From Lachnospiraceae bacterium (lineage in GTDB: Bacteria > Bacillota > Clostridia > Lachnospirales > Lachnospiraceae): a stretch of 34,751 nt of DNA. Under the pieces are notes generated by a model. That model saw only the letters and a list, made by a program, of their open reading frames with translations, was not told where the DNA came from and made no database searches. Positions 18,711 through 26,065 of this stretch are shown in pieces. Position 1 is the first letter of the stretch. Each line of letters starts with the position of its first letter. Location of the stretch: contig JAQYOA010000220.1 of assembly GCA_028727605.1 (NCBI GenBank), positions 1 to 34,751 of the forward strand, read 5' to 3'. Position numbers and translations under genes: made by a program.

Positions 18711-19694
18711 ATGTCAGTTCATTTTGCGACAATCGGGACAAGTAAAATAACGGTTCGCTTTCTGGAAGCAGCCGGAAAATGTGAGGATTTCAGATACTGT
18801 GCGGCGTATTCCAGGGAGAAAGGAAGAGCAGAAGAGTTTGCCGGAATGTATGGGGCAGAAAAGAGTTATGATGATCTGGAAGAGTTGGCGGCGGATCGGG
18901 AAGTGGATGCGGTGTATATTGCAAGCCCGAATTCCCTGCATTGCCATCAGGCAGTACAGCTTTTGAATGCAGGAAAACACATTCTCTGTGAGAAATCCAT
19001 GGCTTCCAATCTTCGCGAGGTACAGGAGATGATCAAAGCAGCCCGCCAAAACAAAAGGGTGCTGATGGAAGCGATGCGCCCTCTCCATGATCCGGGCTTT
19101 GAGAGAATGGCAAAAGAGATGGCAAAGCTTGGAACAATCCGCCGGGCTGCTTTTCGTTATTGCCAGTATTCCAGCCGTTACGACAGTTTTTTGCAGGGGA
19201 ATCATCACAATATTTTTGATCGCAGCTGTTCGGCAGGGGCACTTATGGATATCGGCGTTTACTGTGTGGAGCCGATGGTGCAGCTTTTTGGTGTGCCAAA
19301 AGAAGTAAAAGCGTCGGCTGTTCTTCTGCGGGGAGGAATCGACGGGCTTGGAAGCATTCTGGCAAGCTACGATTCCATGGTGGCGGAACTGGTTTATTCG
19401 AAGATAACAGACAGTAAGGAGCCCAGTGAAATCCAGGGGGAAAAGGGAAGAATGCTGATCTGGAATATCACAAATCCCAGAAAGATAGCGATCCATTATT
19501 ATGATGGGACAGAAGAAGAATATGAAGTGCCGGGAGAAGAAAACAATATGCTTTATGAGATACAGAAATTTCTTCTGGCAGTACAGGGAAGAGAAAACAC
19601 CGAAGATTATCTTTGGACGTCGCTGGAGAGTATGAAAATCATGGATGAGGTCCGCAGGCAGATCGGGGTCTCATTTCCGGCAGACAACATCTGA
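18711..19694 (+). CDS. Gfo/Idh/MocA family oxidoreductase (copy 1)
   Basis: FATIGTSKIT... Rossmann start; VDAVYIASPNSLHCHQAVQLLNAGKHILCEKSMASN. Confidence 0.92.
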   Translation: MSVHFATIGTSKITVRFLEAAGKCEDFRYCAAYSREKGRAEEFAGMYGAEKSYDDLEELAADREVDAVYIASPNSLHCHQAVQLLNAGKHILCEKSMASNLREVQEMIKAARQNKRVLMEAMRPLHDPGFERMAKEMAKLGTIRRAAFRYCQYSSRYDSFLQGNHHNIFDRSCSAGALMDIGVYCVEPMVQLFGVPKEVKASAVLLRGGIDGLGSILASYDSMVAELVYSKITDSKEPSEIQGEKGRMLIWNITNPRKIAIHYYDGTEEEYEVPGEENNMLYEIQKFLLAVQGRENTEDYLWTSLESMKIMDEVRRQIGVSFPADNI

Positions 19695-19710
19695 GAAGGA
19701 GGAGAGGGCA

Positions 19711-20751
19711 ATGGAACCGAAAAAGAAAATCATACGCTGGGGAATATTGGGAGCCGGCAGCATCCTGAACCGATGGATCAAAGGAGCCATGCAGGTGAAG
19801 GATATGGAGATTGCGGCAGTAGCTTCCAGAACAATGGAAAGTGCAGAGGCTGTAGCAAAACAGTACGGGATACCGGAGGCGACAAGCTATGAGGAGCTGC
19901 TGTCGCGGGAAGAGATTGATGCAGTATATATTGCCGTTCCTCACAGTGTACATAAGGATCTGGCATTGCAGGCGATGAAGGCGGGAAAACATGTGCTGGT
20001 GGAAAAACCGGCAGCAGTCAATGCGGCGGAATTTGAGGAGATGGCTGCCTGTGCAGAACAGCAAAACGTTTTCCTGATGGAGGCGGTATGGAGCAGATTT
20101 TTCCCGATGGCAGAAAGAATCTGTCAGTGTCTGGAACAGGGACAGATCGGTCAGGTGAGGGCAATCCATTCGGCATTCTCTTTTCGGGCGGAACCGCAGG
20201 ACGGCAGCGGAAGGCTGTTTGACCCGAACCGGGCAGGAGGAGGTCTTCTTGATGTCGGCGTTTATAATCTTCATTTTGCGGATATGATACTGAACAAAGA
20301 GCCTGTACGTATAACTGGTCTGGCTTCTTTTGATACGGATGAACTGCATTTGAAGGTAGATGAGCAGGCAAGCTATATTTCTTTGTATGACAAAGGAGAG
20401 CTGGCGGTTATGACAAGCGGAATCCGCACAGAAATGCCGGATACAGCCTGCATTTACGGTACAGACGGCTACCTTGTGGTGCCGCATTTCTGGAAGCCTA
20501 CACAGATGGAGATTCATTTGGGAGAGAAGGTGTACCGGGAAGAGCGGATGGTAGAGCAGAATGTGAGCGGAATACAGGATGAAGGCTTCCAGTATGAGAT
20601 AAGACATGTGAATGAGTGCATCCGAAACGGACGGATCGAGTCACCGGTTATGATCTGGAAAAAAAGTCTGTCGGTGTTAAGACAGTGTGATTCTCTGCGA
20701 AGAGAATGGAACCTGCGGTATCCGTTTGAGGAGGAATTTTCAAAACACTGA
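19711..20751 (+). CDS. Gfo/Idh/MocA family oxidoreductase (copy 2)
   Basis: IIRWGILGAGSILNRWIKG...; VYIAVPHSVHKDLALQAMKAGKHVLVEKPAAVN; ATG at 19711 after aaggaggag preferred over the 19645 ORF start. Confidence 0.93.
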   Translation: MEPKKKIIRWGILGAGSILNRWIKGAMQVKDMEIAAVASRTMESAEAVAKQYGIPEATSYEELLSREEIDAVYIAVPHSVHKDLALQAMKAGKHVLVEKPAAVNAAEFEEMAACAEQQNVFLMEAVWSRFFPMAERICQCLEQGQIGQVRAIHSAFSFRAEPQDGSGRLFDPNRAGGGLLDVGVYNLHFADMILNKEPVRITGLASFDTDELHLKVDEQASYISLYDKGELAVMTSGIRTEMPDTACIYGTDGYLVVPHFWKPTQMEIHLGEKVYREERMVEQNVSGIQDEGFQYEIRHVNECIRNGRIESPVMIWKKSLSVLRQCDSLRREWNLRYPFEEEFSKH

Positions 20752-24667: not shown

Positions 24668-24697
24668 TTGACGCCGAACAGGAATTCTCGTTATAAT
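24668..24697 (+). promoter_or_regulatory. Strong predicted sigma-A promoter reading antisense to xre1 and toward the 25116 gene
   Basis: TTGACG - 18 nt - TATAAT. Confidence 0.65.
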
Positions 24698-24701
24698 GAA
24701 A

Positions 24702-24720
24702 ATACTACTAAATGGTCGTA
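24702..24720 (+). promoter_or_regulatory. Shared XRE-locus motif, copy a
   Basis: ATACTACTAAATGGTCGTA, at the predicted +1 of the 24668 promoter. Confidence 0.6.
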
Positions 24721-24759
24721 AAAGAGCAGATGAAAAAGTTACGAAGAGAAATCATTGAT

Positions 24760-24978
24760 TTATTGACCGAATTTTCTTTTCACGTCGCTGATGCCAAGCA
24801 GATAATCTGTTGTGCAGTCATAAAGCTTTGCGAGCCGGATCAGAAAATCAGTAGGAATATCGCGAGTTCCTTTCTCGTAACGGGAATATACATCTCTGTG
24901 ACAATTCAGGATCACGGATATTTCTTTGATTGTCAGATCATGGTCTACTCGCAGGTCTTCAATTCTCTGATATTTCAT
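24760..24978 (-). CDS. XRE-family helix-turn-helix regulator 1
   Basis: 72 aa, LTIKEISVILNCHRDVYSRYEKGTRDIPTDFLIRLAKLYDCTTDYLLG, HTH_3-type. Confidence 0.88.
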   Translation of the reverse strand: MKYQRIEDLRVDHDLTIKEISVILNCHRDVYSRYEKGTRDIPTDFLIRLAKLYDCTTDYLLGISDVKRKFGQ

Positions 24979-25036
24979 CTGTCTCTACCAATCCTTTGCC
25001 ACTAATCCTACCAATGGCGGCAGAATTTAAGGACAA

Positions 25037-25055
25037 ATACGACTATACGGCTATA
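25037..25055 (+). promoter_or_regulatory. Shared XRE-locus motif, copy b
   Basis: ATACGACTATACGGCTATA, between xre1 (-) and the 25116 gene (+). Confidence 0.6.
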
Positions 25056-25115
25056 TTTGCACGGCAATTTATTCGAAAAATCTGTGCGGCGATTCGTTGA
25101 AGGAGGATGCAGGTC

Positions 25116-25532
25116 ATGGAGGAGCGGCAGATCATCAGGGCAGGCGAGATTGCGCAGGATATGATGGGAGCGATCTGCGATGGTGATGAAGAAGCGATAA
25201 AAGAGGGATTTCCCCGGGAAATTCGGGAATACTGTGAGCAGGGAGAAATTCTGGATGGAATGGAAGTTCATCGGCTTAAGGCGGAATTGATGCAGGAGGC
25301 CGGAATCGATGAGACGAGTTTCTTCTATAAAAAGATAGGAATTCGTATCGGTTCCGGAGAACAGGAGTGTGATGAGGAAGTGCCGGAAACAGAAAAATGC
25401 AGTGTTCTGTTTCAGATCGGAAAACCTTTTTGGCAGGGGCATATGGGATGGCCGTTTTCCATCGATCTTTGTCTGGAAGAAGAGGAATGGAAGCTGGACG
25501 AATCATGGATCAGAGAATACCTGCTCCGATGA
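25116..25532 (+). CDS. Uncharacterised acidic protein
   Basis: 138 aa, MEERQIIRAGEIAQDMMGAICDGDEEAIKEGF...; RBS aaggagg 9 nt before ATG 25116; no family recognised. Confidence 0.75.
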   Translation: MEERQIIRAGEIAQDMMGAICDGDEEAIKEGFPREIREYCEQGEILDGMEVHRLKAELMQEAGIDETSFFYKKIGIRIGSGEQECDEEVPETEKCSVLFQIGKPFWQGHMGWPFSIDLCLEEEEWKLDESWIREYLLR

Positions 25533-25546
25533 TTTGACGAAAAGAG

Positions 25547-25573
25547 ACAGTCGGGATGAAAAATCCCGGCTGT
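25547..25573. terminator. Convergent (bidirectional) terminator hairpin between the 25116 gene and xre2
   Basis: ACAGTCGGGAT-GAAAA-ATCCCGGCTGT. Confidence 0.7.
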
Positions 25574-25578
25574 TCCAT

Positions 25579-25797
25579 TTACTCTCCGTAATGATGTCTG
25601 ATATCAGAAAGACCCAGAAGATAATCCATGCTGCAGTCATAAAGCCTGGCGAGACGAACAGCGAGATCAATGGGAATCTGTCGTCCGCCTTTCTCGTATC
25701 TGGAATAGACATCGCGGTTGCAGCCGAGGTAGGAAGCAACAAAGCGAATCGTAAAGCCACGCTCCAGACGGAGCTGTTCAATTCTTTCAAATTTCAT
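25579..25797 (-). CDS. XRE-family helix-turn-helix regulator 2, paralogue of regulator 1
   Basis: 72 aa, MKFERIEQLRLERGFTIRFVASYLGCNRDVYSRYEKGGRQIPIDLAVRLARLYDCSMDYLLGLSD; GTG at 25806 is an alternative start. Confidence 0.88.
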   Translation of the reverse strand: MKFERIEQLRLERGFTIRFVASYLGCNRDVYSRYEKGGRQIPIDLAVRLARLYDCSMDYLLGLSDIRHHYGE

Positions 25798-25814
25798 TTT
25801 GATCACCCATTCTC

Positions 25815-25833
25815 ATACTACTAAACGGCCGTA
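25815..25833 (+). promoter_or_regulatory. Shared XRE-locus motif, copy c
   Basis: ATACTACTAAACGGCCGTA just upstream of xre2. Confidence 0.6.
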
Positions 25834-25846
25834 TCGAAAAAGCAGG

Positions 25847-25865
25847 ATACTACTATACGGCATTA
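25847..25865 (+). promoter_or_regulatory. Shared XRE-locus motif, copy d
   Basis: ATACTACTATACGGCATTA, 32 nt from copy c in the same orientation. Confidence 0.6.
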
Positions 25866-26038: not shown

Positions 26039-26065
26039 TTAGCACTCCACTGAAACGAGTGCTAA
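26039..26065 (+). promoter_or_regulatory. CIRCE operator (HrcA binding site)
   Basis: TTAGCACTC-N9(CACTGAAAC)-GAGTGCTAA consensus arrangement, upstream of hrcA (outermost left base not certain). Confidence 0.96.

Follow-up and report, generated by a model that had tools for sequence, protein, structure and literature searches.

Computational analysis of a 34,751-nt stretch of DNA from a Lachnospiraceae bacterium (the whole stretch is referred to below as the window) suggested that two small paralogous XRE regulators, Xre1 and Xre2, share one type of operator, an imperfect dyad found at several places around their genes. The explanation that best combines the results, and that we consider likely to be correct, comprises operator dyads, paired autoregulation of the two regulator genes, probable cross-regulation between them, and an antisense switch at operator 1. 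That the sites are operators shared by the XRE proteins, as originally predicted, is the best reading of them and is strongly supported by their conservation within the genus, by the joint loss of sites and genes, by the absence of the motif elsewhere in the genome, and by the presence of dyads at related genes.

Sites and genes at the locus

The features of the locus, in order along the window, are listed here.

24668..24697, + strand: near-consensus sigma-A promoter TTGACG-18-TATAAT (11/12 match)
24702..24721, + strand: operator 1 (dyad), the orthologous sites of L040 and L041 being perfect palindromes
24760..24978, - strand: xre1, encoding a 72-aa single-domain XRE/HTH_3 regulator (Pfam HTH_3 E=3e-10)
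25005..25022, + strand: operator 2a, degenerate, ATCCTACCAATGGCGGCA, with orthologous sites such as ATACTACCAACTGG in relatives
25037..25055, + strand: operator 2b, ATACGACTATACGGCTATA, present as ATACGGYCATAYGGMCGYA in G001, G002, G004 and G006
25107..25532, + strand: orf141, a small gene and the presumed regulated target, with homologues at the same place in five other genomes
25579..25797, - strand: xre2, encoding a 72-aa HTH_3 paralogue of Xre1 (40/72 identical)
25815..25833, + strand: xre2-proximal operator, ATACTACTAAACGGCCGTA, kept in G001-G004
25847..25865, + strand: xre2-distal operator, ATACTACTATACGGCATTA, 32 nt from the proximal site

A scan with the motif ATACKACTAWAYGG returned four exact matches in the window, at 24702, 25037, 25815 and 25847, exactly where the original prediction had placed them, and a scan allowing up to two mismatches returned the same four, compared with 0.64 expected by chance, in agreement with the earlier remark that the motif was not noticed elsewhere in the window. 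When the proposed genome-wide scan was run on the 2.91-Mb genome (251 contigs), these four copies at the XRE locus were the only exact matches, and the reversed control pattern had no exact match in the whole genome. A motif common in the genome and unrelated to XRE genes, which had been named as the finding that would speak against shared operators, is thus not what the scan showed. The one-mismatch matches that were inspected elsewhere (L006-L009) lie within long reading frames. A regulon elsewhere in the same genome was rejected, since the inspected near matches are coding sequence and the two-mismatch totals do not exceed those of the reversed-pattern control. In another Fusicatenibacter genome, G002, TACGGCCAAATGGTARWA sites were observed at C6:5732, C128:6964 and C128:7999, the first of which is upstream of a gene resembling a member of the Rpn/PD-(D/E)XK family; it is possible that these sites represent a further target or the operator of another regulator.

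The motif is an imperfect dyad of 18-20 bp, TACKRCY-AWAY-GGNCGTA, with its best symmetry axis at the motif centre, and alignment of 28 sites from six genomes gave a consensus of roughly ATACKRCYAWAYGGNCGTA with the axis in the middle. Perfect palindromes occur in relatives (ATACGACCAAACGGTCGTAT at L040:2120 and TACGGCCAAATGGCCGTA at L041:2107). The left arm is TACTACT in three of the four window copies, and in the copies at 24702 and 25815 the right arm is closer to the palindrome than the left. The predicted common orientation of the four copies was found, all being on the + strand, but it carries less weight than it had been given because the motif is a dyad. The inventory of four copies was likewise correct as far as it went, but it overlooked both the dyad symmetry and a fifth site, degenerate in sequence, at 25005 (operator 2a), which lacks one spacer base in the window and was recognised via the relatives. 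This fifth site is on the xre1 side of the xre1/orf141 intergenic region, 32 nt from the copy at 25037, and repeats the 32-nt pair that had been described upstream of xre2 and was found there at 25815 and 25847; therefore, xre1 and xre2 each have a 32-nt site pair. Almost every pair in all the genomes has this 32-nt spacing, including the xre2 pair in G000, G001, G003 and G004, the one exception being the 33 nt at the xre2 pair of G002. The complement of the xre2-proximal operator, TTTAGTAGTAT, may overlap the xre2 -10 element.

Alignment of the two XRE proteins gave the 40/72 identity, without gaps over 72 aa, that had previously been counted by hand. Both proteins score above the Pfam HTH_3 cut-off of 23 bits (40.4 and 47.4 bits) and both contain the recognition helix RDVYSRYEKG, the residues of which are the same in the two proteins in nearly all genomes. 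Orthologues of xre1 were found in G001-G004 and G006. Of the two copies in the window, xre2 has diverged more (56% identity with xre1 and no more than 64% with any xre2 orthologue), and the 72-aa proteins are too short for most forks of their gene tree to resolve. Assignment to the RstR family of repressors (NF041951) was rejected, with scores of 34.2 and 39.1 bits against a curated cut-off of 80, as was assignment to type II toxin-antitoxin antitoxins, for which the HigA, MqsA and PezA matches were all below cut-off; searches of toxin-antitoxin, defence and phage families returned only generic HTH matches for the XRE proteins. A third paralogue, xre3, is present at L014:2709-2927 (G000:C160) and L042:2705-2923 (G005) and is 93% identical between the genomes. 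It has the same recognition helix, but its upstream region in L014 and L042 is without a dyad, which counts against the preferred explanation; a conserved TTGATT-17-TAGAAT-like promoter is found upstream of xre3, and the divergent gene is lipoprotein-like.

The gene orf141 is restricted to the genus (found in two of 250 family genomes, both Fusicatenibacter) and evolves fast, the window copy being about 20-27% identical to the others. No Pfam, NCBIfam, PADLOC or PHROG family matched it above threshold, and a toxin-antitoxin, defence or phage module was rejected because orf141 had no qualifying family match. An AlphaFold model built from six sequences (pLDDT 75) consists of four helices, then a sheet and then a last helix, and the best Foldseek matches, all with E > 0.001 and not significant, include NTF2/cystatin-like folds (CaMKII hub, PBP2a), so that the protein may possibly have a fold of this kind. 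A search for structured RNA gave no Rfam match. The neighbouring genes are chromosomal housekeeping genes, uvrB before the locus and a CIRCE element with hrcA-grpE-dnaK-dnaJ after it (names from reading the translations), and no phage, plasmid or ICE genes were found around the locus. The CIRCE element is perfect (26039-26065, TTAGCACTC-N9-GAGTGCTAA) and precedes hrcA-grpE-dnaK, consistent with ordinary HrcA autoregulation. Elsewhere in the window, two adjoining Gfo/Idh/MocA-type oxidoreductase frames (18711-20751) overlap by ~50 bases as listed, with start codons unrefined.

Conservation in Fusicatenibacter and among related XRE genes

The site array is kept in five other Fusicatenibacter genomes, at the same places and with the 32-nt pairs, and the sites are conserved across six genomes while their flanks diverge. 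In G001-G004 the order is promoter, operator 1, xre1 (-), operators 2a/2b, orf141 (+), xre2 (-) and operator pair, and hrcA is next wherever the contig reaches that far. G006 has lost xre2 together with its site pair and has retained orf141 and operators 1, 2a and 2b, and G005, which is without xre1 and xre2, has no credible site, the best being one 2-mismatch match. The suggested comparison with relatives thus showed the motif kept with the XRE genes and lost with them (G006, G005). A REP-like interspersed inverted repeat, GTAACSGTTCAG...CTGAACGGTTA, was also observed around the locus in relatives (L038:2117-2145, L041:2258-2290 and L039 near 2495).

A contig scan identified 40 loci of XRE relatives, and the 31 outside Fusicatenibacter were examined for a dyad within 200 bp upstream, which had to contain the core C[CT][AG]WW[CT][AG]G and to be complementary at no fewer than four of its five arm positions. 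Such a dyad is present upstream of 19 of these 31 relatives, compared with 1 of 946 control tiles drawn from these loci and 0.06 of 31 in mononucleotide shuffles. When the rule was relaxed, two sites spaced exactly 33 bp apart were seen at seven loci. The motif is therefore taken to be the operator of a family of small single-domain XRE regulators. Speaking against this, 12 relatives are without a dyad by the strict rule, and they include all five of the Blautia-like SQRSYSHYE group. These Blautia relatives (L077, L080-L083), whose helix is SQRSYSHYE, have another conserved upstream block, TTTTAGTATAG..CCATTTTGCTC..GTTCTATACTTT, which is probably their own operator and promoter.

The fourth (outer) arm base is G in all 12 RDVYS loci and T, C or A in all 11 REVYR/RNVY loci, a lead, from loci that are related to each other, that the arm base may track the recognition helix. 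In the RDVYS relatives the dyad is located downstream of a divergent TAGACA-17-TATAAT promoter, a position consistent with the divergent gene being repressed. Which gene is found across the divergent region varies by locus, and the regulators as a family therefore do not have one fixed target. The sequence itself shows the sites, their dyad form, spacing and conservation, their co-loss with the genes and the family-wide association.

The operator-1 promoter and the proposed regulation

The original prediction had placed the first motif copy at the predicted +1 of a promoter after uvrB. This position was confirmed, operator 1 starting 5 nt past the -10 element and spanning the predicted transcription start, but it had been overlooked that the promoter, which is past the uvrB terminator, is directed antisense into the 3' end of xre1, through this gene and towards orf141. 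In all six Fusicatenibacter genomes TATAAT is invariant with operator 1 within 4-6 nt downstream, TTGACG or TTGTAA (TTGNNN) is found 17-18 nt upstream of it, and the oppositely oriented xre1 is between this promoter and orf141; in each of the six it is also the best + strand promoter. In the window, a search of the stretch from operator 1 to orf141 gave no terminator. Weak hairpin/T-run signals are present in this interval in four relatives, on the xre1 antisense strand or before it, and might end the antisense RNA short of orf141. Immediately upstream of orf141, the genomes of the genus show no conserved promoter of comparable strength. It is a tentative, if parsimonious, proposal, to which we give rather less than even weight, that the operator-1 transcript both serves orf141 and opposes xre1 in an excludon-like switch.

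In the proposed mechanism, dimers of the XRE proteins would bind the dyads, and the duplicated regulators would share one operator type. The two sites of a 32-nt pair, about three helical turns apart, would be on the same face of the DNA, making cooperative binding likely, and a pair at each regulator's own promoter would result in autoregulation. With the same recognition helix in both proteins, each would probably also act on the other; such cross-regulation is plausible because recognition helix and site type are the same at both genes. The XRE proteins are likely to be repressors because the sites are over or just after -10 elements. Since no xre1 or xre2 promoter could be clearly identified by consensus, their -35 elements being weak, the sign of control at the site pairs is uncertain. 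The operator-1 promoter would be shut when the XRE proteins are bound, and upon their loss the polymerase would cross xre1 antisense and may continue into orf141. Antisense transcription would in turn reinforce the loss of xre1, giving a double-negative, switch-like arrangement. Within this mechanism, we infer binding, the sign of regulation, cross-regulation and the extent of the antisense transcript from the sequence.

Other explanations of the sites were considered. They might serve only one XRE protein, probably Xre1, with Xre2 a diverging paralogue under its own autoregulation and the operators sharing ancestry without cross-regulation. The retention of operators 1, 2a and 2b with xre1 alone in G006, the greater divergence of the window xre2 (56% to xre1, at most 64% to orthologues) and the somewhat different left arms of the xre2 sites (TACTACT or ACAAGACC) are what this explanation would lead one to expect; however, in nearly all genomes the two proteins do not differ in their recognition-helix residues, and the dyad core is the same at all positions, and we regard it as unlikely. 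Far less probable still is that the sites are alike simply because promoter DNA was copied along with the gene when xre was duplicated, and that they now have no function. Duplication would indeed give similar upstream pairs at both XRE genes, but operator 1 is not in the upstream region of an XRE gene, the sites are kept in six genomes while the flanks diverge, and other genera have the same dyad.

Alternatively, the XRE proteins could both activate and repress, as lambda CI does, with the distal site of a pair recruiting or contacting polymerase at a weak xre promoter and the proximal site repressing at high protein level. The weak -35 elements of xre1 and xre2 are in keeping with this, as are the distance of ~43-48 bp from the distal site centre to the likely start (if the -10 element is TTTAGT or TAGTAT) and the multi-site autoregulated switches of the related Xre-type regulators ImmR and Rco (PMC4207663), but relatives in the RDVYS clade with a single operator work without a pair. 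Dual regulation seems rather improbable. A more serious competitor, though short of an even chance, is that the operator-1 promoter yields only a short non-coding antisense RNA to xre1, with orf141 having a weak promoter of its own in the 2a/2b region. Such a candidate, AGGACA-16-TATATT (9/12 match), overlaps site 2b in the window, and the hairpin-T signals that four relatives have between operator 1 and orf141 would agree with early termination. Against it, no 2a/2b promoter is conserved across the genus, whereas the operator-1 TATAAT is invariant in 6/6 genomes, and the window has no such terminator between operator 1 and orf141. Shared operator dyads with paired autoregulation, probable cross-regulation and an operator-1 antisense switch remain the preferred explanation.

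A broader reading is speculative and, in our view, doubtful: the locus would be a bistable chromosomal switch, conserved in the genus, with two paralogous mini-repressors holding down a strong promoter whose transcript is both antisense to one repressor and the mRNA leader of a small genus-specific protein, and the regulators would belong to an undescribed, widespread XRE family with its own operator code (helix RDVYS or REVYR paired with the arm base) and a fixed 32-33 bp operator pair. A literature search found no description of the XRE family or of the motif. The analysis provides an operator definition and a testable protein-DNA code for very small XRE regulators of Lachnospiraceae and some other Bacillota, and a locus at which a cultured species, Fusicatenibacter saccharivorans, would allow a test of antisense transcription under the control of the overlapped repressor.

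Comparison with known systems

The best family-level matches of the XRE HTH domain are RstR/Cro-like phage repressors (NF041951, PHROG 8), from which the present proteins differ in scoring below the NCBIfam cut-off and in having uvrB and hrcA-grpE-dnaK as neighbours instead of phage genes. In excludons or noncontiguous operons, described in Listeria and Staphylococcus, a transcript overlaps an oppositely oriented gene before reaching its coding gene (PMC7154746); here the promoter and the gene order of such an arrangement are seen, and the long transcript is predicted.

The only PDB relative found at E <= 1e-6 was ImmR of ICEBs1 from Bacillus subtilis (7t8i), which has multiple operators near divergent promoters and for which cooperative autoregulation has been proposed (PMC4207663). 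ImmR resembles the present regulators in its Xre/HTH_3 DNA-binding domain and its multiple operators, whereas the locus described here is without ICE genes and has two paralogous single-domain regulators, a different dyad, and one operator predicted to control an antisense promoter. Rco of plasmid pLS20 is likewise of the Xre type, regulates its own expression and has operator arrays and divergent promoters (PMC4207663), but it controls conjugation by DNA looping between distant operators, in contrast to the 32-nt pairs and the lack of plasmid genes at the present locus. By analogy with ImmR and Rco, the locus would work like the known autoregulated switches of the Xre/Cro type.
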